Assembly: GCA_937899145.1 (NCBI GenBank)
Contig: CALBPW010000100.1
Location: 1-21,121, forward strand
Length of the DNA stretch: 21,121 nt
Direction: 5' to 3'
Source of the DNA: an uncultured Bacteroidota bacterium
Lineage (GTDB): Bacteria; Bacteroidota; Bacteroidia; Bacteroidales; SZUA-534
Below, in pieces: positions 1-17,408 of the stretch; position 1 is the stretch's first letter; each line of letters begins with the position of its first letter. The position numbers were made by a program, and so were the translations under genes. The notes beneath the pieces are model-generated. The model was not told where the DNA came from. It was given only the letters and a program-made list of their open reading frames with translations, and did not search any database.

Positions 1-1
1 C

Positions 2-925
2 GAACGAGCCGAATTCACCCAAGAATTTGAGCCTGTGCTGCTTATGGTTAAAGACGACCGACGCCAAGCGCAAGTAACCGATATGCTCCAGCGCGCACAT
101 GCTAACATGCGGCAAATCAGACTTTTCCAATTGGATACAAACCGAAATTGGATGCGCGATTCTGGCCCGATAACCGTTCGCAATAATGGAAACCTCGAAA
201 TGCTCCATTTTGGATTTACCGGCTGGGCTAAATATTCTAATAATCTGAAAGACAGAAAAGTGCCGCAAGTGGTTGCTAATGTGCTTGGCTTGCCTTGCAC
301 CAGTGTCATGTATCGTGGTCGGAGAGTCGTGCTTGAAGGCGGCGCAATCGACCATAATGGCAGCGGTGTGCTTGTAACAACCGAAGAATGTCTTTTGCAT
401 CCAACGCAACAAGTTCGTAATCAAGGTTTTACAAAAGCTGATTATGAACAGGTTTTTGCCGGTTATTTAGGTGTAAAGCAAGTGATTTGGCTTGCCGAAG
501 GCATTGCTGGCGACGACACGCACGGCCATGTTGATGACATTTGTCGTTTTGTTTCGCCTGACACCGTAGTCGCCTGCTGCGAGCCTGACAAAAACGACGA
601 AAATCATTTGAAACTTGAACATAATATTGATATTCTGGAAAATACAACGCTTTTTAATGGTAGAAAACTGCAAGTTGTGAGAATTCCAATGCCATCGCGC
701 ATCGATTTTGAAGATATGCGGTTGCCGGCAAGTTATGTTAACTTTATCTATGTAAATGGAGGCTTGCTTGTGCCAACTTTCAACGATGCCAACGATGCAG
801 TTGCAATCAACACCTATCAGAAAATTTTCCCAAATCGCAAAATCATCGGCATCAATGCCACCGACTTGATTTGGGGACTTGGAACATTGCACTGTTTAAG
901 TCATGAAATACCAAAAAATGTTTAA
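2..925 (+). CDS. aguA: Agmatine deiminase family protein, 5' end missing
   Basis: Partial gene. The frame is open from base 2, so the GTG at 35 is only an internal codon and roughly the first 40-60 residues lie outside the window; 307 residues are visible. The family hydrolyses guanidino groups, classically agmatine to N-carbamoylputrescine plus ammonia in polyamine synthesis. Visible family marks, in order: WMRDSGP near the start, LEGGAID, the GDDTHGHVDD block with the acidic and His catalytic residues, and the C-terminal HC (Cys codon 893-895) that should be the nucleophile, in GTLHCLSHE. This is the PAD_porph fold. The sequence matches the short cytosolic agmatine deiminase type rather than the secreted peptidylarginine deiminase, since no extra C-terminal domains follow. 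It lies upstream of the lipoprotein peptidase gene on the same strand. Substrate assignment is inferred from family resemblance. Confidence 0.88.
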   Translation, partial: ERAEFTQEFEPVLLMVKDDRRQAQVTDMLQRAHANMRQIRLFQLDTNRNWMRDSGPITVRNNGNLEMLHFGFTGWAKYSNNLKDRKVPQVVANVLGLPCTSVMYRGRRVVLEGGAIDHNGSGVLVTTEECLLHPTQQVRNQGFTKADYEQVFAGYLGVKQVIWLAEGIAGDDTHGHVDDICRFVSPDTVVACCEPDKNDENHLKLEHNIDILENTTLFNGRKLQVVRIPMPSRIDFEDMRLPASYVNFIYVNGGLLVPTFNDANDAVAINTYQKIFPNRKIIGINATDLIWGLGTLHCLSHEIPKNV

Positions 926-1020
926 CAGGTTAAAAAATAGTGTTTAAATTACATTTTGCGCATTACACTTATAACTTCATACATTGCTCATTATACATTA
1001 CTCTTCACATACTACACTTT

Positions 1021-3129
1021 ATGTTAAACAAATTTCTTCCAGCACTTGCGATTACTTTCATCGCATCGGGCTGCCAACAAAACAAAATTAATTATCCGAT
1101 GACAAAAAAAGTTGATACGGTTGACGTATATTTTGGTCAGCCAGTAGCCGACCCTTATCGTTGGCTCGAAGATGACAATTCTGACGAAACCGCGCAATGG
1201 GTTAAAGAACAAAACCAACTGACATTCAGTTATTTAGAAAAAATCCCGTTTCGTGGTCAAGTCAAAAAACGATTAGAACAACTTTACAATTATCCGAAAA
1301 TGTCGGAGCCGGTTAGGTATGCGGGGCGATATTTCTGGTTTAAAAAGGACGGAATGCAAAACCAAAGTGTCATGTATTATAGCGATACACTTGGCGGCGA
1401 GACTGTTGAATTGTTGAATCCAAACGCATTGTCTGACGATGGCACTGCGGCACTTTCAACTGAAGCTGTATCGCACGATGGTAAGTATTTAGGCTATGCC
1501 ATAGCTCGCGCCGGTTCTGATTGGACTGAAATCTATGTTAAAGAAATTGCGACAGGCAAAACTCTTGACGACCATATCAGATGGGTGAAATTTTCGGGAA
1601 TATCGTGGTACGGCGATGGTTTTTTCTATTCGCGTTATCCCGAACCTTCTGATAATGATGCGCTTACGGCGGCAAATATCTATAACAAAGTTTATTATCA
1701 CAAAATTGGAACCCCGCAATCGGCTGATAAACTGATATTTGAAGACCCCAAACACCCCGAACGTAGTTTTTATACGCAAACATTTAAAGGCGTACATATT
1801 CTTGTTATTTATGCTGCTGAATCAACATCGGGTAATATGTTGTATATAAAAGATTTAGAAGAAAATAGCGAAGCGCAATGTATTGTCGGCAATTTTGATT
1901 CTGATTATGCGGTATATGATATTTGCAATGACAAATTGCTGACACTCACTAATTTCGATGCGCCAAAGTATCGTTTTGTGGCCATCGACCCCAAAAAACC
2001 TGAAAGTGCGAATTGGCAAACCATCATTCCAGAAAAAGAAAATGTGCTGTCATCGGTTACGGCTAAAACTGAAAAATTATTTGCCGAGTACACCAAAGAC
2101 GCACAAAGCCATTTCGAAGTTTATTCATTGGCCGGCAACTATTTATACGATGTTGAGTTTCCTGAAATTGGTGCTGTATCAGGTTTTGACGGTGAAAAGG
2201 ATGACAACGAAATATTCTATACCATCACATCTTTCACATCGCCGTCAAATATCTATAAATATGATGTAAAAAGCAATAAATCAGAACTTTATCATCGTTC
2301 TGAAATTAATTTTGATGGTAGCGGCTACGTAACAAAGCAAGTTTTTTATGCAAGCAAAGACGGCTCGCAAATACCGATGTTTATTGTGCACAAAAAGGAC
2401 ATCAGACTTGACGGCTCAAACAAAGTGTGGATGTATGGTTACGGCGGTTTCAATATTTCGCTTTTGCCAATGTTCAGCGTTACACGTTTGGCATGGCTTG
2501 AGCAAGGCGGAATCTATTGCCAGATGAACTTGCGCGGTGGTGGTGAATATGGCGACGCTTGGCACAAGGCCGGCACTCTGATGCAAAAACAAAATGTGTT
2601 TGACGATTGCATTGCCGCTGCCGAGTATATGATTGCCGAAGGTTACACTACGGCTGGCAATATTGTGCTGCAAGGTGGTTCAAATGGCGGATTGCTTGTT
2701 GGTGCAGTTGTAAACCAACGCCCTGATTTATACGGAGTTTCGTTGCCTGCTGTCGGCGTTATGGATATGTTGCGCTATCATAAATTTACCATCGGTAAAC
2801 ATTGGGCAACCGATTACGGCACAAGCGAAGACAGCCCGCAAATGTTCCAATATCTGCTCAGCTACTCGCCACTGCACACCATAAAAGATGCGGCTTATCC
2901 GGCAACCCTTGTAACTACAGGCGACCACGACGACCGCGTTGTGCCTGCTCACTCATTCAAATATGCAGCCACATTGCAAGAGCATCAGCATGGGGCGGCG
3001 CCTGTGCTTATCCGCATCGAGACTAATGCAGGGCATGGAGCCGGCAAACCAACTTCAAAATGGATTGAAGAAAATGCTGATTTGATGGCGTTTGCATTTC
3101 ATAATCTGAAAATATACCCAAAGTATTGA
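1021..3129 (+). CDS. Prolyl oligopeptidase (S9A), predicted lipoprotein
   Basis: Serine peptidase that cleaves after proline in short peptides; probably anchored in the envelope. I chose ATG 1021 over the in-frame GTG at 940 because it gives a clean lipoprotein signal: MLNKFLPALAITFIASGC with the lipid-attachment Cys at residue 18. The extra 27 residues from 940 have no such sense. From 1021 the protein is 702 residues, normal for the family. The N-terminal part starts with the conserved DPYRWLED block, followed by the beta-propeller. The catalytic alpha/beta-hydrolase domain shows Ser554 in GGSNGG, an Asp in DHDDRVVP (residue 637 or 638) and His672 in AGHGAG. There is no Shine-Dalgarno upstream, as usual in Bacteroidota. 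A terminator follows 25 bp after the stop codon. Confidence 0.95.
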   Translation: MLNKFLPALAITFIASGCQQNKINYPMTKKVDTVDVYFGQPVADPYRWLEDDNSDETAQWVKEQNQLTFSYLEKIPFRGQVKKRLEQLYNYPKMSEPVRYAGRYFWFKKDGMQNQSVMYYSDTLGGETVELLNPNALSDDGTAALSTEAVSHDGKYLGYAIARAGSDWTEIYVKEIATGKTLDDHIRWVKFSGISWYGDGFFYSRYPEPSDNDALTAANIYNKVYYHKIGTPQSADKLIFEDPKHPERSFYTQTFKGVHILVIYAAESTSGNMLYIKDLEENSEAQCIVGNFDSDYAVYDICNDKLLTLTNFDAPKYRFVAIDPKKPESANWQTIIPEKENVLSSVTAKTEKLFAEYTKDAQSHFEVYSLAGNYLYDVEFPEIGAVSGFDGEKDDNEIFYTITSFTSPSNIYKYDVKSNKSELYHRSEINFDGSGYVTKQVFYASKDGSQIPMFIVHKKDIRLDGSNKVWMYGYGGFNISLLPMFSVTRLAWLEQGGIYCQMNLRGGGEYGDAWHKAGTLMQKQNVFDDCIAAAEYMIAEGYTTAGNIVLQGGSNGGLLVGAVVNQRPDLYGVSLPAVGVMDMLRYHKFTIGKHWATDYGTSEDSPQMFQYLLSYSPLHTIKDAAYPATLVTTGDHDDRVVPAHSFKYAATLQEHQHGAAPVLIRIETNAGHGAGKPTSKWIEENADLMAFAFHNLKIYPKY

Positions 3130-3153
3130 TAATGAATTTATATCGATAATGAG

Positions 3154-3191
3154 AATCCGACTTGCGAAGGTTTGTGAGTCGGATTTTTTTT
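3154..3191 (+). terminator. Rho-independent terminator of the S9A peptidase gene
   Basis: Perfect 9-bp inverted repeat AATCCGACT (3154-3162) and AGTCGGATT (3177-3185), with a T-run at 3184-3191. It lies 25 bp after the stop codon at 3129. Confidence 0.9.
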
Positions 3192-3209
3192 GCCTACAAA
3201 TAATTCAGT

Positions 3210-3239
3210 TTTGCGAGAACTGATTTTTTTCTATATTTT
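3210..3239 (+). promoter_or_regulatory. Candidate Bacteroidota-type promoter for the mltF-like gene
   Basis: TTTG at 3210-3213 followed after 18 bp by TATATTTT at 3232-3239, close to the Bacteroidota -33 TTTG / -7 TAnnTTTG pattern. The last base deviates from consensus. It lies 20 bp before the ATG. Confidence 0.35.
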
Positions 3240-3259
3240 TAAAAGTTTATTGCGGGCTT

Positions 3260-4678
3260 ATGAATGTGTTTAAAAAAATATCAATTCTTTTATGCGCAAC
3301 CTTGCTACTTATGGCGTGTCATAGCAAAAAAGCCGAACAAGAGCCCGAAAGTTACGACTTGCCCGAAATTGAAAAACGGGGTAAACTTATCGCTACAACC
3401 GATTATAATTCAATAAGTTACTTTGTTTATCGCGGAACGCTGATGGGGTATCAGTATGAATTGTTACGCGATTTGGCAAAATCGCTCAATCTCGATTTGG
3501 AAGTAAACGTATCTAACAACCTCGACAACGATTTCGAAAATCTGATAAACCACAAAACCGATATTCTCGCTATTAATCTGGCAGTTACGGCCGAACGTCA
3601 ACAAAAAGTCGCCTTTACAACACCAATAACTCAGACGCGACAAGTGCTTGTGCAACTATCCGAACGCCAACGCATACGCAACAATCGCAATTACAAAGGC
3701 GAAAAACAGATAAAATCGATACTTGATATGGCAGGCAAAACCATCTATGTGGTTAAAAATTCGGCTTACGCAGCGCGCTTGCGTAATATCGAATCGGAAA
3801 TAGGCGACACAATAGATATTATCGAGGTTGAAAATATTGATTCAGAGCAACTTATCGAACAAGTCGCAAAGGGCGAAATCGACTATTGCGTTACCGACGA
3901 AGATGTGGCTATGATTAATCAAACGTACTATCCAATGCTTGATATAAGTACGGCGGTGTCGTTCCCGCAAAATATGGCTTGGGCAGTCAGCAAAGACAAC
4001 CCGACGCTGCTTGACACAGTGAACAATTGGATTGCCGGAATGAAAAATTCGGCTTTTCATATTGTGCTTTACAAAAAGTATTTCAAAGACCCAAAGACAC
4101 TTACTCGCGCACAAAGTCCGTACCAGTCGTTCCGCGGAGGCTCAATATCAAAGTACGACGATGCCATAAAAAAGTATAGCAAACAAATTGATTGGGATTG
4201 GCGATTGTTGGCATCGCTCATTTATCAAGAATCGCGGTTTAATGCCGATGCCCGCTCGTGGTGCGGCGCCTTTGGACTGATGCAGCTAATGCCCGAAACA
4301 GCCGCACGCTTTGGCATTGACTCTACAGCAACGCCAGAAGCCAACATCAAAACGGGCGTTAAGTTCATCAAGTGGCTCAACAGGCAACTTAAAGACTCCG
4401 TTGCCGATGATGAAGAACGCATAAAATTCATCTTGGCATCGTACAATATCGGTTTAGGGCATATTTTAGACGCGCGCCGTGTAGCCCGCGTCAATGGCGG
4501 CAATCCTGACATTTGGGACGGAGCCTCCAATGTCGATTTCTTCCTTCGTCATAAATCTGACAAACTCTACTACAACCCTGAAATTGTCCGCTCAGGCTAT
4601 TGTCGAGGCGAAGAAACCCACAATTTTGTTCGCGATATTATTGAAAGGTACAATATCTATAAGACGTTGATTAAGTGA
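3260..4678 (+). CDS. mltF: MltF-like lytic murein transglycosylase, lipoprotein
   Basis: 472-residue envelope enzyme that would cleave peptidoglycan glycan strands to 1,6-anhydro-muropeptides. The N-terminus is a lipoprotein signal (LLLMAC, lipid Cys at residue 20). Residues of about 35-275 resemble a periplasmic amino-acid-binding (SBP_bac_3) domain, with the family start RGKLIATTDYNS and YQYELLRDLAK. Residues of about 305-430 form an SLT lysozyme-like domain with catalytic Glu324 in YQESRF, then GAFGLMQLMPETA and the ASYNIGLGH block. SBP plus SLT in this order is the MltF architecture. No Shine-Dalgarno is visible. A terminator precedes the gene, so it is probably transcribed alone. In Gram-negative bacteria the binding domain regulates the transglycosylase; whether it does so here cannot be read from the sequence. 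Confidence 0.93.
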   Translation: MNVFKKISILLCATLLLMACHSKKAEQEPESYDLPEIEKRGKLIATTDYNSISYFVYRGTLMGYQYELLRDLAKSLNLDLEVNVSNNLDNDFENLINHKTDILAINLAVTAERQQKVAFTTPITQTRQVLVQLSERQRIRNNRNYKGEKQIKSILDMAGKTIYVVKNSAYAARLRNIESEIGDTIDIIEVENIDSEQLIEQVAKGEIDYCVTDEDVAMINQTYYPMLDISTAVSFPQNMAWAVSKDNPTLLDTVNNWIAGMKNSAFHIVLYKKYFKDPKTLTRAQSPYQSFRGGSISKYDDAIKKYSKQIDWDWRLLASLIYQESRFNADARSWCGAFGLMQLMPETAARFGIDSTATPEANIKTGVKFIKWLNRQLKDSVADDEERIKFILASYNIGLGHILDARRVARVNGGNPDIWDGASNVDFFLRHKSDKLYYNPEIVRSGYCRGEETHNFVRDIIERYNIYKTLIK

Positions 4679-4808
4679 AGGCTGGAAGATTGAGACACTA
4701 TGCTGTTTGGAAGGTTTAAAGTTTAAGAATTTAACACCCAATACCTAATACCCCGACCGCCAATATCAAAAAATGGAGCACAACAACATTAACCAAAGGT
4801 GTTTTTTT

Positions 4809-4816
4809 TAAATTTG
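4809..4816 (+). promoter_or_regulatory. Bacteroidota -7 box (TAAATTTG)
   Basis: A perfect TAnnTTTG match, 20 bp upstream of the ATG at 4837, after a run of T. No matching -33 TTTG is visible at the expected distance, so this is a partial promoter call. Confidence 0.45.
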
Positions 4817-4836
4817 CGGTTCAAAAGAAATGTAAA

Positions 4837-5478
4837 ATGTTTATTTTCAGTAAAAAATACGCGCCACGTTGGATTGTCTTAATAATCGACATTTTCATCA
4901 GCACCGCGTCTATCATAATAGCCTATCTGTTGCGTTTCAATTTTGAAATTCCTGAAAACGAAAAAATCGGTGAACTTACACAAATAGTTCAACTTGTTGT
5001 TGGTGTCAGATTTGTCAGCTTCTTGATATTCAAGACATTTGCAGGCATAATTCGCTACACCGGATTGAATGATGCCCGTCGCATTATCATCACCACTGCG
5101 ACGGGCAGCATTGTAATATCGCTCATCAACGTAGTGTGCTACTATGGCGGGCTGACCGAAGCATTTATTGTGCCAATGTCGATTGTCATCATCGAATTTC
5201 TAACCACAATGTTTTTCATGATTTCGCTGCGTTGGTTAGTAAAGTCGATATTTTTTGAGTTCCGTTCAACGCTAAAAACTCGCAATGTCATTGTTTACGG
5301 AACCGACCGCAATGCGCAATCGGCAAAAGTGGCACTTGAGGAGGACAGCGGTTCTAATTACAAAGTGGTAGCCTTTGTCGATGATATTGATAAAAAATTA
5401 TCGGAACTGTCAATCTTAAGGAATAAGAATTATATAGTACAAAGCATCATATTGCTTCTTCCGTTTGAGAACAGTTGA
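4837..5478 (+). pseudogene. Truncated FlaA1/CapD-type nucleotide-sugar dehydratase/epimerase membrane protein
   Basis: N-terminal third of a polysaccharide biosynthesis protein of the FlaA1/WbpM/CapD family, normally about 600-650 residues. Four membrane segments are visible at about residues 13-32, 47-66, 85-103 and 108-130, with LLRFNFEIP between the first two. Then comes the start of the first Rossmann-like domain (RNVIVYGTDRNAQ, VVAFVDD). The resemblance ends at DKKL (residue 188, base 5400). The remaining 25 residues are unrelated and stop at 5478. The whole second, catalytic domain (GxxGxxG and YxxxK motifs) is missing. The loss coincides with the change in base composition and ribosome-binding-site style, so the truncation is more likely the edge of a joined sequence than an in-place mutation. 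An intact homologue would act at the inner membrane in capsule or O-antigen precursor synthesis. Confidence 0.85.
5395..5410. other. Abrupt junction between Bacteroidota-like and Bacillota-like DNA
   Basis: To the left: moderate GC, genes without Shine-Dalgarno, -7 boxes of Bacteroidota type. To the right: eroded, increasingly AT-rich DNA and then genes with strong AGGAGG sites and TTGACA/TATAAT promoters. The break falls inside the coding sequence above, at about base 5400. No direct repeat, insertion-sequence end or attachment core is visible at the joint. Confidence 0.7.
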
Positions 5479-5783
5479 CAGAATACTTAAATACTCTAAA
5501 TAAAGCAAATGAGAATGGGGGAACATAAAAAGTAATCGTTGGCAACAACAATAAATATTCAAGATGAACTAAAGTTCTATCGTAATGCAACATTGCAGGT
5601 CATCGTGGACAGGTAAAAGGGAAGGTGGTTCACGATTCACAATGGTATTTAGATAACCCAATTGGTTTTAGATTTATTTATGATTGCGACAATTTTCAAA
5701 TAGTTGATGGTGTCATTCCAAGAGGAAATAATTTATGCAGAGATTATGAAAAATCTGCTAGTAACGGAAAAAGACAAAGATAA
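5442..5783 (+). pseudogene. Eroded coding remnant, unknown function
   Basis: One frame carries protein-like sequence interrupted by four stop codons (5466 TGA, 5526 TAA, 5565 TGA, 5583 TAA). The pieces include EQLTEYLNTLNKANENGG and KVIVGNNNKYS, then an open stretch of 65 codons from 5586 to the stop at 5781 containing AGHRGQVKGKVVHDSQWYLD and GVIPRGNNLC. A second frame reads NIQDELKFYRNATLQ just before 5610, suggesting small indels as well. I do not recognise the family. It is followed at once by a strong hairpin terminator, which fits the 3' end of a former gene. Confidence 0.4.
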
Positions 5784-5790
5784 TAATACC

Positions 5791-5834
5791 AAAAAAGACA
5801 ATTTTAGTCACATAGTCTTAAAATTGTTTTTTTT
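5791..5834. terminator. Hairpin terminator, probably bidirectional
   Basis: ACAATTTTA (5798-5806) pairs with TAAAATTGT (5819-5827). An A-run precedes it (5791-5796) and eight T follow (5827-5834), so it can stop transcripts from either side. It closes the + strand remnant and overlaps the stop of the minus-strand remnant at 5818-5820. Confidence 0.75.
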
Positions 5835-6019
5835 GAATATCTTTATCAAAAATATTGAGATTTTTTTGTTTGCCTTTTAACTCACTTAATTCATCATAAT
5901 AGATAACAATTAACTCATTAAATTTACATAACTAAAGTAATTTTTCTTCTTGTTCTCCAAGTAAAATCCTTATTAATCGTACCCCATTACACCATTTCTT
6001 TACAATAACAACAAAAAAA
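5818..6019 (-). pseudogene. Degenerate minus-strand coding remnant, unknown
   Basis: Read from right to left, one frame gives VKKWCNGVRLIRILLGEQEE, then an in-frame TAG at 5934-5932, then FNELIVIYYDELSELKGKQK and a TAA at 5820-5818 inside the terminator. The amino-acid make-up (amphipathic, Leu/Glu/Lys rich) looks coding on both sides of the TAG. There is no start codon with a ribosome binding site. No family recognised. Confidence 0.3.
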
Positions 6020-6040
6020 TCAATCCTTTTGGGATTGATT
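6011..6040 (-). terminator. Minus-strand terminator
   Basis: AATCAATCC (6018-6026) pairs with GGATTGATT (6032-6040) across a 5-base loop. The A-run at 6013-6019 gives a T-run for leftward transcripts. It overlaps the stop codon of the remnant ending at 6020. Confidence 0.7.
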
Positions 6041-6189
6041 TCTATTTAATGTCCGAATAATTCGAACAGAATTATCTAATGGAGCGCTATACGTTCAAAG
6101 TAAGCCAAAATATTTTCTTTTGATAAATATATTATACTACATTTTTTAATAGTTTGACTAATAATATATAATTTTTTTAAAGGCCATGG
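6020..6189 (-). pseudogene. Degenerate 3' end of a minus-strand gene
   Basis: The frame starting after 6189 reads KKLYIISQTIKKCSIIYL and KENILAYFER down to about 6092. A frame change near 6095 then continues as YSAPLDNSVRIIRTLNRNQ and SQKD, ending in TGA at 6022-6020. The last codons form a hairpin with a minus-strand T-run, the compact stop/terminator arrangement also seen in the intact genes of this half. Just upstream another frame gives ENCGYNHGL. I read this as the tail of a frameshifted gene; the family is unknown. Confidence 0.33.
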
Positions 6190-6201
6190 TTATATCCACA
6201 A

Positions 6202-6357
6202 TTTTCCCTATATTAATATTATATAGTTATTGGAATTATAGTAATATATAGGGAACGAAATAATTCAAAACTTTGGATTAATTTTGCATGTGCAAAATAA
6301 GCTTTTCCCTATGAAGATGACTTATGAAATAAGGCTTTTGAATAGTTTAAGGGAAAA
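6202..6357. repeat. Two tandem related hairpins with TTTTCCCTAT arms
   Basis: Hairpin 1 spans 6202-6255 (TTCCCTATAT at 6204-6213 against ATATAGGGAA at 6246-6255). Hairpin 2 spans 6304-6357 (TTTTCCCT against AGGGAAAA). Both span about 54 bp and begin 102 bp apart. The stretch from 6190 to 6616 otherwise holds no supportable gene, only these hairpins, a palindrome at 6282 and the promoter region of the next gene. Confidence 0.5.
6282..6297. repeat. Palindrome TTTTGCA-TG-TGCAAAA
   Basis: A 7-bp inverted repeat around a 2-bp centre. A near-identical site lies at 8038-8053, and the flanks are similar too (TCAAAACTT upstream in both). Palindromes of this size often bind dimeric regulators or recombinases; the function here is unknown. 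Confidence 0.55.
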
Positions 6358-6548
6358 TCTCTTATGCTCTTTGTTTTTTTATCACAAAATAATTGATAAT
6401 TTTGGATTATATTAGGCCATTTTAGGACATAAGTATGGATACAAATTAATGTCAATACCCATTATAGATGTTTTATCATTTTTCGGAATATTAGTAATAT
6501 TGCGTTCATTTACTTTACACTTTTAACAGCATACAAATATAGAAAAAG

Positions 6549-6580
6549 TTGCTTTTCATATATATATATATATATATAAT
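6549..6580 (+). promoter_or_regulatory. Promoter with an (AT)n spacer, candidate phase-variable switch
   Basis: TATAAT at 6575-6580 is the -10 box. The best -35 is TTGCTT at 6549-6554, giving a 20-bp spacer. Most of that spacer is an AT dinucleotide tract at 6558-6578 (about 10.5 units). Loss of one or two units would give 18 or 16 bp, nearer the 17-bp optimum. The ATG of the surface protein gene lies 36 bp after the -10 box. Confidence 0.5.
6558..6578. repeat. AT dinucleotide tract
   Basis: 21 bp of uninterrupted alternating A and T, about 10.5 units, between the -35 and -10 boxes of the surface protein gene. Tracts like this change length by slipped-strand mispairing. Confidence 0.9.
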
Positions 6581-6616
6581 TGAGGTATAAAGGATAAATG
6601 ATTGGATGTGTAAAGT

Positions 6617-7849
6617 ATGAAAAAATTAATATTACCAATTTTATTATTTATGATGTTTATGCCATTTAAAGTTAATGCTTTTACATGCGATATAAAAACA
6701 ATTCCAACATCATCAGGATATGGATTAATATATGAATTTAAAAAAATAGATATTTCTACGAATGAATCATTGAAAAATGCTGAATTTACTTTAAGTTTTC
6801 TTAATAATAATTATATTTTTGAAACTATACAGAATTATGATGATACATCTAGTTATTATGAAATAAAAAGTTTTTCTAATGTAAATACAGTAGAATTATA
6901 TAATTTATTGCCACAAAGTATAAAAGATTTATATGACTATATAAATTCATATAACGATTACACCATAATACGAAGTGATATAAATTATACAAATAATAAT
7001 TCCATCTGCACTCAATGGATTGACGAAAACAATAATACTTATTGGGATAGTTCAATTGTAATTGATTTTTTAATTCCTTTAAAGATAGTAGAAAAAAGAG
7101 CACCAGTCGGATATAAAAGGGATGAAATGATAGTTCTTGCTAATGTTTCCTTGATTTTTAATTATAAAGATCGAGATGAAAATATTGATAATAAACAAAT
7201 TATTATCACATCTACTGGAAACACATTTTATAAATATGATAAATCGATTAATTATGAACAATATATTGTTAATAATAATTTGAGTGAATTAATGCAGAAT
7301 TATCCATCTTATGACAAATTTATTCCAAATGAAAAAGGTAGTATAGAGCTAAAAATTGATAATAAAATAGAAAATACATATAAATATGAAACAAAATCAA
7401 ACAATCGTGTTAATTATAAAATAATATTTAGTAATGATGGAACCGCCTCTTCGGGTAATAATGAAATAAAAATTGTAATACCAGAAGAATTGGAAGTCAT
7501 TGAAGATACAATAAGTGATAATGGAATACTTAATTCTGAAAAAAATGAAATTTATTGGAATATAGATTATATAGATTCTAACTCTAAAAAAGAATTATCG
7601 TTTGATATATTTATTCCTACAAGAGCAAAAGGAGAATACAAACTTTATTCAAGTATTCATAATGGTGAAATAGATGTAAATGCTCGAGAAACCACCCTAA
7701 AAATAAATGAAGAATTATCAGTACCAGACACATTAAAAAATCCGAATACAGGAACAGGCATTTCTTTAATAATTATAACAATTATACTATTTGTAAGTTC
7801 TATTGCCAATATAATGATAAAAAAGAAGAAAAATTATATTTTAAAATAA
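6617..7849 (+). CDS. Cell-wall-anchored surface protein with NPNTG sorting signal
   Basis: 410-residue secreted protein. A signal peptide runs to about residue 22 (KVNA). The C-terminus has a complete sortase signal: NPNTG at residues 375-379, a hydrophobic segment, and the basic tail IKKKKN. Sortase would cleave before the final Gly of the motif and attach the protein to peptidoglycan. Residues of about 250-365 (NRVNYKIIFSNDGTA, IPEELEVIEDT, GEYKLYSSI) resemble a DUF11-type Ig-like surface repeat. The middle carries KRAPVGYKRDEM, similar to pilin-like Cna_B or prealbumin-type edges, but I cannot assign a domain. The gene is more AT-rich than the housekeeping genes to the right. The ribosome binding site is weak; an out-of-frame ATG at 6598 has the better AAAGGA. 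No sortase gene is in the window. Likely an adhesin or minor pilin, by inference. Confidence 0.8.
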   Translation: MKKLILPILLFMMFMPFKVNAFTCDIKTIPTSSGYGLIYEFKKIDISTNESLKNAEFTLSFLNNNYIFETIQNYDDTSSYYEIKSFSNVNTVELYNLLPQSIKDLYDYINSYNDYTIIRSDINYTNNNSICTQWIDENNNTYWDSSIVIDFLIPLKIVEKRAPVGYKRDEMIVLANVSLIFNYKDRDENIDNKQIIITSTGNTFYKYDKSINYEQYIVNNNLSELMQNYPSYDKFIPNEKGSIELKIDNKIENTYKYETKSNNRVNYKIIFSNDGTASSGNNEIKIVIPEELEVIEDTISDNGILNSEKNEIYWNIDYIDSNSKKELSFDIFIPTRAKGEYKLYSSIHNGEIDVNARETTLKINEELSVPDTLKNPNTGTGISLIIITIILFVSSIANIMIKKKKNYILK

Positions 7850-7873
7850 TCGTAAGATTAAGATATTACGTTC

Positions 7874-7901
7874 AAGTAGGATAAAAAATATCCTACTTTT
7901 T
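7874..7901 (+). terminator. Terminator of the surface protein gene
   Basis: Perfect 10-bp stem AAGTAGGATA (7874-7883) and TATCCTACTT (7889-7898) with a 5-A loop and a T-run to 7901, 25 bp after the stop codon. Confidence 0.92.
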
Positions 7902-7902
7902 G

Positions 7903-8131
7903 TATGTCATAATATGGTTATGTTTTGACCATAAAAACTTATTATTTTTTTAATTATTTAGTAAGAGCATAAGAGTTTGATATCCTTACACATATAAAGC
8001 CTTTTTTTATAAGAATTTTATGTGATATCAAAACTTATTTTGCACTTGCAAAATGTAACATATACTATGTCATATTATAATTAGTTTAGTTTTATTTTAA
8101 GCCAAATTAATATGGTTTATTTTATGTCATA
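7903..8131. repeat. AT-rich intergenic stretch with recurring TATGTCATA and AAAACTTAT words
   Basis: The 387-bp gap between the surface protein gene and the recombinase gene has no gene I can support. TATGTCATA occurs at 7903, 8066 and 8123. AAAACTTAT occurs near 7932, 8030 and 8152, and ATATGGTT near 7912 and 8111. The spacing is irregular. It may be a recombinase or regulator binding region, or simply the decayed edge of an element. Confidence 0.4.
8038..8053. repeat. Palindrome TTTTGCA-CT-TGCAAAA
   Basis: Same 7-bp arms as the site at 6282-6297, with a different central dinucleotide (CT rather than TG). The two sites flank the surface protein gene, about 1.76 kb apart. Confidence 0.55.
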
Positions 8132-8176
8132 TTTTTATCACAACAACATTTAAAACTTATATAATTATGGTTATAT

Positions 8177-8208
8177 AAAAAAGAACTTAATTCATGTTAA
8201 GTTCTTTT
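8177..8208 (-). terminator. Terminator of the serine recombinase gene
   Basis: Perfect 12-bp stem AAAAGAACTTAA (8179-8190) and TTAAGTTCTTTT (8197-8208) with a 6-base loop. The A-run at 8177-8182 gives a T-run for leftward transcripts. It lies 29 bp beyond the recombinase stop codon. Confidence 0.9.
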
Positions 8209-8236
8209 GATAAATACGATAAAACAAAATAAATTC

Positions 8237-9994
8237 TTATTTTGGAATAAATAATAATTCATCAACAAATTTATTATCTATTATAATTGCACCAACTAAT
8301 ACACCTTGATTAGATACTAGATTGTTGATTATTTCTTTATGATCTTCATGTATATTATTATTGTTATTTAAATAATCTTCTACACTTATTGTATTATAGT
8401 TTTCATATAATGTTAGTAATGTGTTCATATCTTTTATTTGTTTATATTCAAAACCTTTATAGTTTTCTCTTAAAGATAACATCAAATCATTTAAAAATTC
8501 ATCAGCATTTTCATTAAAATATTGTTTTTCAAATTTTATATTAGTAATATCAATAAAGTATTCTTCATCTCTAGATATTTCAATTTGTCTAATAAACTTA
8601 TGCAATATTAGTTTTTTAGTTTCAGGATCTAGTTTTAACCATTTTTGATATATTGGTAATTCTTTGTTCATAAAATAAGTATTTAAATTTGTATTACTAA
8701 AGTTATTTAATAGTTCTATTTTTACCTCTATTGGTTCTTCATAATTTAATTCTTGTTTTTTCTTTTCTAGCTCATTAATCTCATTTTTTATCATTTCGTT
8801 TTTCTTATTTATTGTATCAACATCTAAACTACTAGATAGATATAATTCTACTAATTTTTCTTCTTGCTGTTTTAACTTGTTAATAGCTTTTTCTATATTC
8901 TCAAAATCTTTGTTTGTATCTACTTTCGGCTTAACAATGTTTTCTGGATTTTCAGTCATATAGATTATTAATTCATTTAATAGCTTAGATAAAGTTCTTT
9001 CTAATCTATCACAACTATAGTGTAGTCCTTTGCCTATACATTTCTTATTTTTACATACAAGAAAGTAATAGTCTTGATATCCATCTTTTGTTTTCTTATG
9101 TGAAAATGTAGAACTTAATATATTCTTACAATGTGGGCATATAACTAGATTAGAAAATATATGTGTATGCTTACCATAATTTTCATGACAATTCCTTTTT
9201 ATTTGTTTTCTTGATTTATTCCATATCTCTTTAGTTATAATTGGTTCACAATAATTTTCAATAGTTAATTGTTCTTCTTTTTTACGATTATATTTTCCAA
9301 ATATAAATGTACCTATATATATTTCATTATCTAATATTTTACAAACTCTAGAATCAGACCATTTACCAGTTTTTAAATATCTATTTTCTTGTCTCATTTT
9401 TTCTGCTATTTGTCTATAAGGTATTCCCATAACTGACATATCGAATATATCTTTAACTACTTCTGCTTCAACTGGATCTATTTCTAAATGTTTAGTTATA
9501 GGATCTCTAGTATATCCATAAGGTGGTTTAGCAGGATGTTTATGTTCAATAGCCATTTGTTCTAATCCTCTTTTTGTTCTTGCACTTATTTCTTTTCTTT
9601 CTCTTTGACCAAATGCTAGATTAAGTCCAAACATCATTTCACCATTTGCAGTTGATATATCAAAAGGTTCTAGTGTTAATTCAATTCTTACATTATATTT
9701 ATCACATTGATGTAATAGCCAATATCCATCATAACCATCTCTTGTTAATCTATCTGTTTTAATAGCTAGAAGAATATCAATTTTACCATCTTCAATATCT
9801 TTTAGTAATCTTTGCATTTCAGGTCTCATTAAGTTTTTACCAGAGTATCCAGCATCATTATATATTCCAACTATATTATAGTTATTTTTGTCAGCATATT
9901 CTTTTAACATACGAAGTTGTGAATCAATAGAATATCCATTATCTCTTTGTTCATCAGTTGATACTCTTACATATATAGCAACTTTATTATTCAC
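8237..9994 (-). CDS. Large serine recombinase (site-specific integrase/transposase)
   Basis: 585-residue DNA recombinase of the large serine family, which cuts both strands at short att sites and joins ends through a Ser-DNA link. The N-terminal resolvase domain has the nucleophile Ser12 in YVRVSTDEQ and the Arg-rich block KTDRLTRD (79-86). The Recombinase domain follows (about 155-265, PPYGYTRDP to the ICKIL-like and YIGTF motifs). A zinc ribbon has Cys286, Cys289, Cys314 and Cys319, and a long coiled coil covers about 360-425. The length fits integrases of integrative elements and phages rather than small resolvases. The start is GTG 9994 behind an AGAGAGG site. The gene is translationally linked to a 38-residue leader ORF and preceded by a terminator-like hairpin. 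No relaxase, replication or structural phage gene is nearby, so the element is small, partial or remnant. Confidence 0.95.
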   Translation of the reverse strand: MNNKVAIYVRVSTDEQRDNGYSIDSQLRMLKEYADKNNYNIVGIYNDAGYSGKNLMRPEMQRLLKDIEDGKIDILLAIKTDRLTRDGYDGYWLLHQCDKYNVRIELTLEPFDISTANGEMMFGLNLAFGQRERKEISARTKRGLEQMAIEHKHPAKPPYGYTRDPITKHLEIDPVEAEVVKDIFDMSVMGIPYRQIAEKMRQENRYLKTGKWSDSRVCKILDNEIYIGTFIFGKYNRKKEEQLTIENYCEPIITKEIWNKSRKQIKRNCHENYGKHTHIFSNLVICPHCKNILSSTFSHKKTKDGYQDYYFLVCKNKKCIGKGLHYSCDRLERTLSKLLNELIIYMTENPENIVKPKVDTNKDFENIEKAINKLKQQEEKLVELYLSSSLDVDTINKKNEMIKNEINELEKKKQELNYEEPIEVKIELLNNFSNTNLNTYFMNKELPIYQKWLKLDPETKKLILHKFIRQIEISRDEEYFIDITNIKFEKQYFNENADEFLNDLMLSLRENYKGFEYKQIKDMNTLLTLYENYNTISVEDYLNNNNNIHEDHKEIINNLVSNQGVLVGAIIIDNKFVDELLFIPK

Positions 9995-10103
9995 TTATAA
10001 TACCTCTCTTTCTATTAAAAAAAGAGAATAAAGCACCGATAGAAAACCAATACTTCATTCTCTTAATAAATCTTAAATTATATATAGATTGTCTTTTAAT
10101 CAT
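9987..10103 (-). CDS. Leader peptide ORF overlapping the recombinase start (38 residues)
   Basis: ATG 10103 follows AGAGAGG at a good distance. The peptide starts MIKRQSIYNLRFIKRMKYW and ends with NRKRGIISE; it is basic with one short hydrophobic stretch (FSIGALFSFF). The TAA at 9989-9987 lies inside the recombinase gene, so the end of this ORF overlaps the GTG start at 9994. Its codons run straight through the terminator-like hairpin at 10017-10064. Translation of this ORF would both melt that hairpin and deliver ribosomes to the recombinase start. The role as a regulatory leader is inference from layout; a structural peptide is also possible. Confidence 0.55.
   Translation of the reverse strand: MIKRQSIYNLRFIKRMKYWFSIGALFSFFNRKRGIISE
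10017..10064 (-). terminator. Intrinsic terminator/attenuator in the recombinase leader
   Basis: On the minus strand AAGAGAATGAAG (10064-10053) pairs with CTTTATTCTCTT (10033-10022), 12 bp with one G-U pair and a 19-base loop. It is followed by a T-run to 10017. It sits between the leader promoter and the recombinase GTG, within the 38-residue ORF. Confidence 0.75.
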
Positions 10104-10148
10104 AGATGTACCTCTCTTTCTAGAGAATATCTCTTTCATTGGTTATAT

Positions 10149-10176
10149 ATATTATTATTTTAAATTATTTTGTCAA
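10149..10176 (-). promoter_or_regulatory. Candidate promoter of the leader ORF and recombinase
   Basis: TTGACA at 10176-10171 is a perfect -35. TAATAT at 10154-10149 gives a 16-bp spacer; overlapping TATATA boxes further on give longer spacers. It lies just after the stop of the upstream small gene. Between it and the leader ATG, AGAGA (10134-10130), TCTCT (10126-10122) and AGAGA (10117-10113) can form two mutually exclusive small hairpins, the second masking the leader's ribosome binding site. Confidence 0.5.
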
Positions 10177-10193
10177 TGACTCTAGAATGAAGT

Positions 10194-10481
10194 TTAGTAA
10201 TTATTAATATATTTTTTAATTTCATTACTATTAAAAGTTTCTTTTGTTTTATGATTTATAAAATTATTTCCCTTAATATGATCTTCTGGATATTCATAAA
10301 ACTCTATTATTTTTGTTTTATAAAATAATAAATATTTAATTGGAATAACTGTTTCAATATTAGTAGGTTCTAATACATTTATTTTTCCACTAGTTATTTG
10401 CATTTTATATGGATGAGTAGAACTAATAGCTTTTAAAGTTTTTGAACTTGGGTTTAGTTCTTGTAATAGTTTTACTTTTAT
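10194..10481 (-). CDS. Small hypothetical protein, start uncertain
   Basis: An unrecognised protein of up to 95 residues. The frame has an ATG at 10403 (69 residues), but it stays open upstream with coding-like sequence (KVKLLQELNPSSKTLKAISS) to a TGA at 10502-10500. A textbook AAAGGAGG lies at 10500-10493. The codon at the right place after it is ATA (10481-10479), which would need a non-standard AUA start or reflects a mutated ATG. The ATG at 10403 has no ribosome binding site. The later part is Lys/Asn/Ile rich (KYLLFYKTKIIEFYEYPEDH) with no transmembrane segment or known motif. It shares strand and region with the recombinase and could be an accessory or excisionase-like protein of the same element, but nothing in it shows this. 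Confidence 0.5.
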   Translation of the reverse strand: MKVKLLQELNPSSKTLKAISSTHPYKMQITSGKINVLEPTNIETVIPIKYLLFYKTKIIEFYEYPEDHIKGNNFINHKTKETFNSNEIKKYINNY

Positions 10482-10483
10482 AG

Positions 10484-10518
10484 AAAAAAGTGCCTCCTTT
10501 CACAAAAGAAAACACTTT
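10484..10518 (-). other. Hairpin enclosing the AAAGGAGG site of the small gene
   Basis: AAAGTG (minus strand 10518-10513) pairs with CACTTT (10492-10487), with a T-run beyond. The ribosome binding site AAAGGAGG lies in the loop region beside a smaller TTTC/GAAA pairing. It can be read as a second terminator after the tRNA or as a translation-control structure. Confidence 0.4.
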
Positions 10519-10520
10519 AG

Positions 10521-10553
10521 AAAATAAAAAGTACATCATTTCTGACGTACTTT
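10521..10553 (-). terminator. Terminator of tRNA-Gly
   Basis: The minus strand reads AAAGTACGTCA (10553-10543), a 4-base loop, then TGATGTACTTT (10538-10528), 11 bp with one G-U pair, followed by TTTTTATTTT. It begins 10 bp after the CCA end of the tRNA. Confidence 0.88.
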
Positions 10554-10562
10554 GATTTTAAA

Positions 10563-10636
10563 TGGAGCGGATGAGGAGAATCGAACTCCCGTAGTCAGCT
10601 TGGAAGGCTGAGGTTCTACCATTAAACTACATCCGC
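10563..10636 (-). tRNA. tRNA-Gly (UCC), CCA encoded
   Basis: 74 bases including the encoded CCA. The acceptor arms GCGGATG and CATCCGC pair fully and the discriminator is U. The anticodon loop CTTCCAA gives anticodon UCC. The D-loop carries AATGGTAGA and the T-arm GGGAGTTCGATTCTCC. It has its own strong promoter and terminator. Confidence 0.97.
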
Positions 10637-10700
10637 ATATACTTTAATCAACCTCGCCTTTCCGATAGCAAAGGTCGACTAAATAAAGTAGACACATTTA

Positions 10701-10728
10701 ATTATACCGAAAATCCTAATAATGTCAA
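10701..10728 (-). promoter_or_regulatory. Strong sigma-70-type promoter of tRNA-Gly
   Basis: Perfect TTGACA (10728-10723) and perfect TATAAT (10706-10701) with a 16-bp spacer. The predicted transcript has a leader of about 58 bases before the tRNA, including a small CCTTT/AAAGG hairpin, probably removed during processing. Confidence 0.85.
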
Positions 10729-10738
10729 CACTTTTTTC

Positions 10739-10766
10739 AAAAAAACAGCAGATTTACTCTACTGTT
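10739..10766 (-). terminator. Terminator of the ispH-GNAT operon
   Basis: The minus strand reads AACAGTAGA (10766-10758), loop, TCTGCTGTT (10752-10744), 9 bp with one wobble pair, then seven T. The hairpin overlaps the stop codon of the acetyltransferase gene at 10756-10754. Confidence 0.85.
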
Positions 10767-11245
10767 TCAATGTTTTTAATCACGGTATGCATACGATTGT
10801 GATATCCCTCTCTATCATAGAACTTTATAGCTTTTTCATTATATGCGAATACATCAATTACTGCATATTTACAATTACATTGTTTAAAATATTCTTCCAT
10901 CTTATTCATTAACTTGTTTCCAATTCCTTTTCCTCTTGCGTCTTTTGAAACAATTAATTCTGTTACTTCTCCTGCTTTTGGGCATTTATAATCTAAATAA
11001 TCGTATTCATCATATTTTCGAATAATTCCCATAATAAGAGCAATTACTTTGTTGTTTTCTACCATTAAGAAGCATTTTCCATTTTTTTCTTCTACTTCTC
11101 TTAAATCAAGTTCTGCCATTTTTTCACGATAATCTTCATGTATTTGATCAAGATGATCTTCATCTATTTCCACTAGATATTCTTCTAATTCTACTAATAA
11201 ATCTTTTACATCTTCTAAATACTTTTCTTCATATTCTACGATCAT
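10754..11245 (-). CDS. GNAT family N-acetyltransferase
   Basis: 163-residue acetyltransferase that would move an acetyl group from acetyl-CoA to an unknown amine. The acetyl-CoA pyrophosphate loop is clear: VSKDARGKGIGNKLM, with RGKGIG at 104-109. The following VIDVFAYNEKAIKFYDREGY is the usual motif B region. The first 55 residues are unusually acidic (EELEEYLVEIDEDHLDQ-like), which may shape the substrate site. The ATG directly follows the ispH stop codon (TAAATG) and its AAGGA site lies in the ispH end, so the two genes are co-transcribed and probably translationally coupled. No functional link to isoprenoid synthesis is implied by the sequence. Confidence 0.9.
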   Translation of the reverse strand: MIVEYEEKYLEDVKDLLVELEEYLVEIDEDHLDQIHEDYREKMAELDLREVEEKNGKCFLMVENNKVIALIMGIIRKYDEYDYLDYKCPKAGEVTELIVSKDARGKGIGNKLMNKMEEYFKQCNCKYAVIDVFAYNEKAIKFYDREGYHNRMHTVIKNIETVE

Positions 11246-12100
11246 TTATTTTCCTTCTTTCAAATAATCTATTATTTCTTGTACAGCAATTTCTGGAGTA
11301 GATGCACCTCCCATGATTCCTACTTTCGCATCATTTTCTATCCTTATTCCTTCTAAATCTTTTGCATCTTGTACTAGATAGACATTTTTACAATTCTTTT
11401 GTGAAATTACTTCTAATTCCTTTGTATTAGAGCTTTTTTTACCTCCAACGATTATCATTGTATCTACATTTTTTGACAATTCATTTGTTTCTTCTTGACG
11501 TTTGCTTGTCGCATCACAAATTGTCTTATCTACTATTATTTCTCCCTTAAATTGTTTTTTTATTTCTTCTACCAATTTATCAAATTTATTACTATTAAAG
11601 GTTGTTTGTGATACAATATAGATTTTATTTTTCTTTGACGTCAAATGTTTTTCTTTACATTCTTCTATATCTTCTTCGTTTTCTAAGATATAAGAATTTC
11701 CTCCTGAAAAACTTTGTACACCGAGAGTTTCTGGATGATTCTTTTTTCCAACAATAATGATAAAAGAATCTTCTTTTTGACGGGATATTTTTATGCGAAT
11801 TGTCTTTATCTTTCCACAGGTTAGATCTAGTAATTCAATTCCTTTTGCTTCTGCTTTGTCATAGGTATCTTTTATTTCTCCATGCGCTCTTATTATTACT
11901 GTTTCATCATTTGGAGCATCTTCTATATTAGAGATGGTTTTCATTCCTTTTTTTTCTAGATCTTCTATTACTCTTTCATTGTGTACAATTTCTCCTAAAC
12001 AATAGATTGTTTTTTCTTTGTTCAAGGCTTTTTCAGCTTCTTCTACGGTGAACCTTACTCCATTACAAAAACCACTGTACTTTCCGACTATTATTTCCAT
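11246..12100 (-). CDS. ispH: 4-hydroxy-3-methylbut-2-enyl diphosphate reductase
   Basis: Last enzyme of the MEP pathway: it reduces HMBPP to isopentenyl and dimethylallyl diphosphate using an Fe-S cluster. The 284-residue protein is of ordinary length. The three cluster cysteines are in place: Cys12 (GFCNGVR), Cys95 (LDLTCGKI) and Cys195 (DKTICDATSKRQ). HNERV (40-44), RAHGE (71-75), HPETLG (122-127), the SSNT block and GGASTPE complete the substrate pocket. The usual CP after the second Cys is CG here, a minor variant. The start ATG 12100 follows CGGTGAT, and a TATACT lies at 12121-12116 immediately after the upstream gene's terminator. A lineage with ispH makes isoprenoids by the MEP route. 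Confidence 0.96.
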   Translation of the reverse strand: MEIIVGKYSGFCNGVRFTVEEAEKALNKEKTIYCLGEIVHNERVIEDLEKKGMKTISNIEDAPNDETVIIRAHGEIKDTYDKAEAKGIELLDLTCGKIKTIRIKISRQKEDSFIIIVGKKNHPETLGVQSFSGGNSYILENEEDIEECKEKHLTSKKNKIYIVSQTTFNSNKFDKLVEEIKKQFKGEIIVDKTICDATSKRQEETNELSKNVDTMIIVGGKKSSNTKELEVISQKNCKNVYLVQDAKDLEGIRIENDAKVGIMGGASTPEIAVQEIIDYLKEGK

Positions 12101-12125
12101 GTAATCACCGTTTTTAGTATAACAT

Positions 12126-12151
12126 AAAAAAGCTATTTATTAATAGCTTTT
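12126..12151 (-). terminator. Terminator of the beta-helix protein gene
   Basis: The minus strand reads AAAAGCTATT (12151-12142), a 4-base loop, then AATAGCTTTT (12137-12128) and six T. The hairpin contains the TAG stop codon at 12135-12133. Confidence 0.9.
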
Positions 12152-14037
12152 CCATTTACATATAATTTATATCCATTAAAGTTAATATTGGAATAAGTTT
12201 CATCTGCATCTTCTAATTCTGTAACATAACTATCTCCTGTTAGAGTGATTGTTGAATTCTTATCAAGCGTTAGTTTTATACTTTTTGCTGTATCATTTCC
12301 ATTTATCGTTCCTGTATATGAAGATTTAGATGTTATTTGCATTATTAATGTTGATATTTCATCTATTACAATATTTCCTTCTGCTGTTTGTTTTTTTAAG
12401 GTAAGCGTTACATTTCCTCCATTACTTCCGGAATTTCCCCATGAATCTTTTTGTACTCTTAGGAAGTTTCCTTCGCTATCTTCGTTTTTTATAGAGTTAT
12501 TTTCTAAAGAGATGGTTGCTGTTGTATTGGTTACATAAAAACTATCTCCTTTTTTTGTTGTAATAGTTGAATTTTTGGCTGTGAATGTTGCAGTTCCTTC
12601 ACTAGCATCTCCTGACATAGATTGATATAAGAAAATATTTTTATACGTAGTAGACTTTCCATTTAATTTTGTATTATTGTCAGTAAGTTCTACATTTTCT
12701 AGTGTTACACTGTTCTTTCCTTCAATTACTACTCCTTCAGATGCAGTTGCTTCTAATGTTGCATTCTTAACTGTAATATCTGCTGTTGAATAAATAGAAG
12801 GAGATCCTTGACCTGTTGTTTTATATGTTCCTCCATTTACATCAACAGTGCCACCTCCTCTATCGCTTCTGATTGCGGCAGAGGATGTTCCGGCTGTATT
12901 AATGGTTAAATTCTTTGCAATCGTTGTTCCTCCTCCTGTTGTCATAATACCTCCGGCATTGTCTTTTGTAGTTGTTATTTTTGAATCACTTATTGTGATT
13001 GTTGTTCCATCACTACTTGCATTATTTGTTTTAGCACTTCCACCATAACTAAATACTCCATTTGCTCCTGTTGCGTTGGTCTCAATCGTTGCATTTTTTA
13101 TTACTACATTTGCTCCTCCTTTTGCAAGGATTGCAGAGTTTGTTCCATAGAAACTTGTATTGTCTCCGCCAGAGGAATCTCCTGTTTTTGTAACAGTAAC
13201 ATTCTCGATGGTAGAAGATACTTCTCCATTTATTAATATTGCATTTTCATCGGCTGTTTCTGAGGTAAAGGTTCCTTCTGTAATATTTTCATCTTTTGTT
13301 ATTTCTTTTGCTGAATTATAGGTTATATTTGAAGTATCTTGTTGATTCATTGTACTGTCCCTACTTGTATGACTGAAATTAAATAATGGACTTACAAAAG
13401 TAATTACTCCTGTCAATATTAATACTAATAGTCCATAAATAATTCCTTTGTCTGTACTTTTAAACACTTCTTTTAAAGTCTTTTTGTTCATTCTAGACAT
13501 TATTAGATATACAATGATTGATGAGATAATCAATCCTTCTACTCCAAATAAGATATAGAAAATAATTGGTGTTGTTGAATTTGTTGTTTGTCCTGGAGGA
13601 GTACCCATTTCTCCATTTGGCATTTCTGGTGGTTCTCCCATCTCATTATTTTCTCCATTTGGCATTTCTGGTGGCTCTCCCATCTCATTATTCTCTCCGG
13701 CTGGCTTTTCTGGTGGCTCTCCCATCTCATTATTTTCTCCATCTGGCTTTTCTGGTGGAGTTTTTCTATCACTACTCTCTCCACTTGATTTTTCTTTTTT
13801 TGTTTTACTTGATGAGCCATCTGTCTTCGTAGTCGTTTCATTTGCTTCTTGTTGCATTTCTGGTGGTTCTCCCATTTCTCTACTTTCCCCATCTGGTGGA
13901 GTCATTCTTTCTCCCATTTCTGACATTTGATTGTTTGAACTTGTATTTGTATTCTTAAAATATATAGTGAATCCTAATAGTCCAAGCATTACTACCAGTA
14001 CTACAATCATAATAATATTTTTTGTTTTTCTTTTCAT
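12133..14037 (-). CDS. Membrane-anchored beta-helix protein with PPE/MPN repeats
   Basis: 634-residue protein of unknown function. Membrane segments are predicted at about 8-27, 157-181 and 197-221. Between the first and second is a low-complexity region with three tandem copies of a 14-residue unit, GENNEMGEPPEMPN or close to it (residues 100-141), plus degenerate copies around residues 40-63. From about residue 230 to the end the sequence is Thr/Ser/Asn/Gly rich with repeated strands such as NATIETNATGANGVFSYGG and NLTINTAGTSSAAIRSDRGG, the look of a right-handed parallel beta-helix. Proteins with similar helices in gut Bacillota are annotated as carbohydrate-binding or adhesin-like (Cthe_2159 type). 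The helix is probably outside the cell. The start has AGGAAGGA upstream. Function as a glycan-binding surface protein is inferred. Confidence 0.75.
   Translation of the reverse strand: MKRKTKNIIMIVVLVVMLGLLGFTIYFKNTNTSSNNQMSEMGERMTPPDGESREMGEPPEMQQEANETTTKTDGSSSKTKKEKSSGESSDRKTPPEKPDGENNEMGEPPEKPAGENNEMGEPPEMPNGENNEMGEPPEMPNGEMGTPPGQTTNSTTPIIFYILFGVEGLIISSIIVYLIMSRMNKKTLKEVFKSTDKGIIYGLLVLILTGVITFVSPLFNFSHTSRDSTMNQQDTSNITYNSAKEITKDENITEGTFTSETADENAILINGEVSSTIENVTVTKTGDSSGGDNTSFYGTNSAILAKGGANVVIKNATIETNATGANGVFSYGGSAKTNNASSDGTTITISDSKITTTKDNAGGIMTTGGGTTIAKNLTINTAGTSSAAIRSDRGGGTVDVNGGTYKTTGQGSPSIYSTADITVKNATLEATASEGVVIEGKNSVTLENVELTDNNTKLNGKSTTYKNIFLYQSMSGDASEGTATFTAKNSTITTKKGDSFYVTNTTATISLENNSIKNEDSEGNFLRVQKDSWGNSGSNGGNVTLTLKKQTAEGNIVIDEISTLIMQITSKSSYTGTINGNDTAKSIKLTLDKNSTITLTGDSYVTELEDADETYSNINFNGYKLYVNGKAINK
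13615..13740 (-). repeat. 42-bp tandem repeat, three units
   Basis: Three 42-bp units coding for GENNEMGEPPE(K/M)P(A/N) inside the beta-helix protein gene; a partial fourth unit follows and degenerate copies lie further toward the N-terminus. The units differ by few bases, so copy number could change without breaking the frame. Confidence 0.85.
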
Positions 14038-14132
14038 TGTATCCTTCCTTTCCTATTATTTTCTCCTTATAGCTATAGTTTTATCATTTCTTTATGAAAA
14101 AAAATTGTATATATTGTGAAATAAATGTGAAA

Positions 14133-15134: not shown

Positions 15135-15154
15135 TGTATCCTCCTAATAAAATT

Positions 15155-15194
15155 TTATCATAAAAAAAGAAGATTTTTCTTCTTTTTATGATAA
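15155..15194 (-). terminator. Terminator of the htrA-like gene
   Basis: Long inverted repeat: TTATCATAAAAAAAGAAGA (15155-15173) against TCTTCTTTTTATGATAA (15178-15194), overlapping the htrA stop at 15188-15186. The A-rich arm gives T-rich RNA on either strand. Confidence 0.8.
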
Positions 15195-16409: not shown

Positions 16410-16483
16410 TTGATCACCTCATTTATAATTACATTTTAAATATATACTTCAATTGTGAAAATTATATGAAATAATTTCATTTT

Positions 16484-17407: not shown

Positions 17408-17408
17408 A

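Follow-up and report, generated by a model that had tools for sequence, protein, structure and literature searches.

A contig of 21,121 bases that is very probably an assembly chimera of two unrelated bacteria, with the change of lineage placed between bases 5398 and 5399

The window (the whole stretch of DNA that was analysed, 21,121 bases) appears to be a complete contig, as its joint-spanning protein is listed with a longest contig of that length. It carries Bacteroidales-type genes on its left, integrative elements beside a tRNA-Gly gene in its middle part and Bacilli chromosomal genes on its right. The features are given below with their coordinates and strand, and with the evidence in brackets:

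1-5398, + strand: Bacteroidales-type block (Pfam, DNA matches in Bacteroidales-family genomes, composition)
2-925, + strand: deiminase (Pfam PAD_porph), cut by the contig start
940-3129, + strand: prolyl oligopeptidase (Pfam)
3260-4678, + strand: SBP/SLT lytic transglycosylase-like protein (Pfam SLT/SBP_bac_3)
4837-5398, + strand: start of a polysaccharide-biosynthesis enzyme
4837-5478, + strand: putatively chimeric ORF of 213 aa, its first 187 residues belonging to a FlaA1/EpsC-like sugar enzyme and its last 26 unrelated
5398-5399, no strand: the joint (match ends and change of sign in composition)
5399-5783, + strand: decayed gene in one frame, interrupted by five stops and open towards its C-terminal end (5586-5783)
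5791-6079, - strand: remnants of element B, read as an integrative element with genes for a relaxase and a serine recombinase (matches in the same order to L077 and other Bacilli loci; Pfam of the full genes in L077; TGGAGC scan)
6080-10568, - strand: element A, whole, integrated at the 3' end of tRNA-Gly (TGGAGC at 6080 and 10563)
6617-7849, + strand: cargo of element A, a surface-type protein with a C-terminal NPNTG motif (translation; weak sub-cut-off DUF11 match)
8237-9994, - strand: large serine recombinase of element A (Pfam Resolvase and Recombinase; PHROG integrase)
10563-10636, - strand: tRNA-Gly (TCC), the target of element A
10754-21121, - strand: Bacilli chromosome (Pfam; colinear with L001, L003 and L004), with genes for a GNAT protein, IspH (LytB), a carbohydrate-type membrane protein, a YjbR protein, a trypsin/PDZ protease, a TPM protein, a zinc-ribbon protein, a GNAT-TsaC fusion and GpmI

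On the right side, Pfam searches confirmed LytB (IspH), the independent phosphoglycerate mutase and the GNAT-TsaC fusion, and three Bacilli MAGs (L001, L003, L004) were colinear with the window, with gaps, from tRNA-Gly to gpmI. A protein search of genome contigs with IspH returned 8 loci, five of them named Bacilli, Bacillales or Erysipelotrichaceae (66-75% identity). The DNA of 5400-21121 matched 193/193 genomes of the family of G001, short tRNA-level matches included; the genomes are called "Bacilli" or "Bacteroidales" after the named records that led to them (L001-L005, L008). Against 20 Bacteroidales-family genomes, the right block gave 29 matches in 16 genomes (best E 4.6e-20): 20 fell in gpmI, which is present in both phyla, and the rest included matches to the protease gene and to tRNA-Gly. 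The earlier note had described the right side as housekeeping DNA; ispH, tRNA-Gly, gpmI and TsaC are present, but what lies near the joint is a mobile-element array without its outer end. Two further observations were made on this side: in the single ORF at 18563-19591, the GNAT acetyltransferase domain is N-terminal to the TsaC (Sua5_yciO_yrdC) domain, and the coding sequence at 12133-14037 contains a 42-base tandem repeat (13610-13777) that encodes a repeated MGEPPEMPNGENNE-type segment.

Searched against 193 Bacilli genomes, the left block gave 11 matches in 10 genomes, the best with E 8.1e-5 and the longest of 61 bases. In G793, the transglycosylase gene is split across two contig ends (contigs C46 and C161; L119 and L120) at the site of window positions 4059-4064. 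The left block is taken as one piece because of its composition and its matches to a single family, not because of gene order. A further misjoin inside it, such as one separating the transglycosylase from the sugar-enzyme gene, is unlikely: each of the 19 fetched Bacteroidales loci holds one of the four left genes only, with differing gene neighbours, but the surroundings of all four genes vary among these genomes anyway. Furthermore, the same two genes stand upstream of the oligopeptidase in two genomes and of the transglycosylase in another two, consistent with a long-standing pairing, and the four genes all match one family, with a composition that keeps to one side.

Composition was scored with fourth-order Markov models, for which the training sets were 252 kb (Bacteroidales loci) and 245 kb (Bacilli loci); as these loci had been fetched for their resemblance to the window, the models are local ones. 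The Bacilli-minus-Bacteroidales score, calculated in 100-base steps, was negative in 5/5 steps before 5400 and positive in 10/10 after it, the sign flipping at 5400. When 500-base pieces were used, the 11 that start at 1 to 5001 scored as Bacteroidales and the 31 later ones as Bacilli. The AT-rich right side that had been described was recovered: GC per 100-base step was 0.20-0.35 across 5400-6399, compared with 0.36-0.46 across 4900-5399. The contrast reported for Shine-Dalgarno sites stood in part (the two left starts tested match 3 nt only; 7 of the 10 on the right match 5-7 nt). The promoter types assigned to the two halves did not hold up. TAnnTTTG, the Bacteroidota -7 box, occurs twice on the + strand of the left block (one box is at 4809, 28 bases upstream of the 4837 start) and at a higher rate on the right, and 50 sigma-70-like sites were found in 4600-11300, against 54.7 in shuffles (sd 7.6). 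Promoter boxes, being not above background, were discarded as evidence for either half.

The ORF at 4837-5478, which spans the joint, had no Pfam match at E 0.001. Its 22 relatives (the ORF itself not counted) reach identities of 78, 75 and 74% in the closest three; PF13727 or PF22674 is present in several of them, and those with names are annotated "polysaccharide biosynthesis protein" (of Bacteroidota) or "FlaA1/EpsC-like NDP-sugar epimerase", polysaccharide enzymes of the WbpM-like kind. In an alignment of 7 of these 23 proteins, the window protein tracks the others to FVDDIDKK (187 residues) and then departs; P0002, P0004 and P0009 continue. P0003 stops at the same codon as the window break, on a contig of 2,287 bases, so this may be a contig end. 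Intact ORFs in the fetched Bacteroidales loci are 605-638 aa long, and in L112, the single intact relative scanned, Polysacc_synt_2 (PF02719) lies at residues 291-572, past the break at 187. The likeness of the window ORF to FlaA1/EpsC (WbpM-like) enzymes is confined to its 187 N-terminal residues, which align with Bacteroidota members; as the window lacks the catalytic domain, the ORF encodes no working enzyme. It formed a one-member cluster among ~5.8 billion proteins, which is weak evidence because most sequences of rare organisms are singletons. One of the relatives, P0004 (ENA contig, 19,627 bases), ends in a PF00381 (HPr) stretch after residue ~270 and is possibly a second chimera in the same gene.

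At the DNA level, 18 matches overlap 4837-5398 (search of 20 genomes of one Bacteroidales family, that of G235). Twelve of the 18 extend past 5380: 10 stop at 5398, one at 5384 and one at 5387, and none runs beyond 5398. By blastn against the 19 fetched loci, nine of which hold the gene, the match ended at 5398 in eight cases and at 5402 in one. The family resemblance that had been reported as lost at base 5400 thus ends after residue 187 of the frame, and the DNA break lies at 5398/5399. The phylum-level switch inside a coding sequence described in the earlier note is confirmed and is now placed to one base, with Bacteroidales-type DNA at 1-5398 and AT-rich DNA of an uncultured Bacilli lineage to the right.

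Element A carries a serine recombinase between two matching ends and is an integrative element. Between 5301 and 10700, the + strand has TGGAGC at two positions, 6080 and 10563, of which the second forms the end of tRNA-Gly; the opposite strand has none. A TGGAGC at 4774, in the left block, was rejected as an element end, its surroundings being unlike those of the other ends and its position preceding a Bacteroidales gene. Both ends of element A (6080-6149 and 10080-10568) are shared by G455 (L051), where the element is also bounded by TGGAGC but no tRNA was detected. The recombinase (8237-9994) has a 92% identical relative, P0024, which represents 478 sequences, and a viral-contig scan for it gave 13 pattern matches and no relative. 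The NPNTG motif of the cargo protein (6617-7849) is presumably of the sortase type.

In 10 of 17 genomes, the window included, large serine recombinases of two groups lie at most ~620 bases from the 3' end of a tRNA-Gly gene (TCC or GCC); the 17 are genomes whose fetched loci contain such a recombinase, the loci having been picked by similarity to the window and some stretches ending early. The ten are the window (6080-10636), L001/L054, L037/L052, L038/L053, L061, L067/L079, L077, L078, L082 and L088. Serine recombinases at tRNA genes look uncommon, and a search found no literature that pairs "large serine integrase" with "tRNA-Gly" (broader wording was not empty).

To the left of element A, the stretches 5791-5876, 5858-5894, 5911-5971 and 5971-6147 match L077 (G714) in the same order. 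Some of their counterparts in L077 are within or next to a relaxase gene (5167-6474, PF03432); others fall inside a second serine-recombinase gene (6910-8790) or straddle the border of the two elements. The end portion alone of the relaxase gene matches in the window; the full L077 gene is a PF03432 Relaxase. L077 has TGGAGC at 842, 9242 and 14491 (tRNA-Gly), among other positions, and from these its element B was read as 842-9242 and its element A as 9242-14491. By this comparison, element B of the window is reduced by deletions of ~3.2 kb and ~0.5 kb and lacks its outer TGGAGC, so that the Bacilli side is cut within a decayed element. The break heeds neither gene nor element boundary: a gene is cut on its left and the decayed element B on its right.

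The two-element tandem at tRNA-Gly, deletion-reduced in its outer member in the window, is whole in G714 (L077 842-14565). Decayed and intact integrative mobilizable elements adjoining at one tRNA gene have been described (PMC5704250). The arrangement in the window resembles such tandem accretion, with a decayed and a second element at one tRNA 3' end and a short shared core (PMC5704250), and differs from it in the large serine recombinases at tRNA-Gly, compared with the tyrosine-type enzymes in the tRNA-gene rows of that source.

The 385 bases between the joint and the remnants of element B (5399-5783) had no relative in PHROGs, in 385 Bacilli genomes (as protein), among 5.8 billion proteins, in phages or in plasmids, and the open end of the decayed gene had no Pfam match. 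A sole 28-base match in 198 Bacteroidales-order genomes was treated as chance. Left homology stops at 5398 and, among the matches listed, Bacilli homology starts at ~5777; for 5399-6250 searched against 386 Bacilli genomes, none of the matches listed starts before that point. By composition and position only, the segment would belong to the Bacilli side: its score exceeds those of all 600 Bacteroidales test pieces and lies under 99.4% of 540 Bacilli pieces. The open stretch at 5586-5783 precedes a hairpin common to the Bacilli loci, and nine of these carry various other genes, on the same strand, at the same place. The segment is read as decayed cargo of element B.

An origin of 5399-5783 in a third organism, with a second misjoin near 5783-5791, is decidedly unlikely. 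It would suit the missing protein relatives in the 385 Bacilli genomes, the late start of the listed Bacilli matches and the low rank of the segment among Bacilli pieces; however, the differing same-strand genes before the hairpin in the nine loci mean that unrelated cargo is to be expected there, the score is above that of every Bacteroidales piece, and the segment is decayed like the remainder of element B.

At the joint itself, a repeat scan found nothing of note at 5398, and the TGGAGC attachment core is absent between 5301 and 6079, which argues against site-specific insertion at the joint. The joint is AT-rich, and the exact matches that touch it have 13 bases for the Bacteroidales loci sampled and 12-14 for the Bacilli ones, too few to demonstrate a linking k-mer. 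A viral-contig scan with a 30-base pattern taken immediately right of the joint gave 0 matches. In a blastn search with 4800-10700, 131 plasmid and 574 phage records were matched, none with 80% query coverage; the idea that the joint region derives from a phage or plasmid was rejected, the matches being to the tRNA-Gly stretch in the best 20 of the 131 and the best 20 of the 574.

A real and very recent junction, in which illegitimate recombination fused 5.4 kb or more of Bacteroidales DNA with a Bacilli chromosome, in either direction, within the element hotspot at tRNA-Gly, is very improbable: the joint does adjoin a mobile-element array, an entry place for foreign DNA, and the full form of element B bears a relaxase, but there is neither an attachment core in 5301-6079 nor a notable repeat, the left block begins and ends within genes and carries ordinary enzymes, 0/193 Bacilli genomes have a left-block match of >61 bases, and the joint-spanning ORF has no second copy. 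Equally improbable is a fusion within a decayed element of this hotspot so recent that the Bacteroidales block has kept its composition.

Judged from its sequence, the contig is very probably an assembly chimera of two unrelated bacteria. This reading is preferred because homology is lost base-exactly in mid-gene, where intact relatives run on with a catalytic domain; because neither block has a substantial cross-phylum match, gpmI excepted; because of the composition step at 5400; because Bacilli gene order is conserved on the right; because the joint has no attachment site in its vicinity and element B is without its outer end; and because the joint-spanning ORF is alone in its cluster, while the 92% relative of the recombinase represents 478 sequences. 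The preference of the earlier note for misassembly over transfer of a 16-kb block is likewise supported, the cross-phylum matches being insubstantial bar gpmI and the gene order of the right side being common to Bacilli MAGs.

Between 5398 and 5399, the assembler would have left a Bacteroidales chromosome and entered a Bacilli one, both presumably from one and the same sample, at a point that lay in a polysaccharide gene on the left and in a decayed element of the tRNA-Gly tandem array on the right. A high AT content or low coverage there may have permitted this step. That the assembler rather than a cell made the join is suggested by what each route would require: for the cell, a break in a Bacteroidales gene and another in a Bacilli element, without an attachment core or a notable repeat; for the assembler, a single weak link only. 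Assemblers are known to produce chimeric contigs by way of shared k-mers or of errors in sequencing (PMC7299287). The window resembles the inter-genome chimeric contigs of short-read metagenome assembly in its two genomes and its sharp switch of ancestry and composition (PMC7299287). The chimeras treated in that source, however, are mostly between related species that share k-mers, whereas here the phyla differ and the longest matches at the joint are of 12-14 bases.

The approach needed no reads, using instead the many relatives that lose homology at one mid-gene base and the truncated mobile element opposite, and it can be applied to further doubtful contigs. A real joint would represent a rare inter-phylum chromosomal fusion. 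Because the contig is almost certainly misjoined, the side-by-side position of its halves is given no biological meaning, and claims of an operon, cargo, transfer or shared regulation that link the left and right genes should be dropped for this window.
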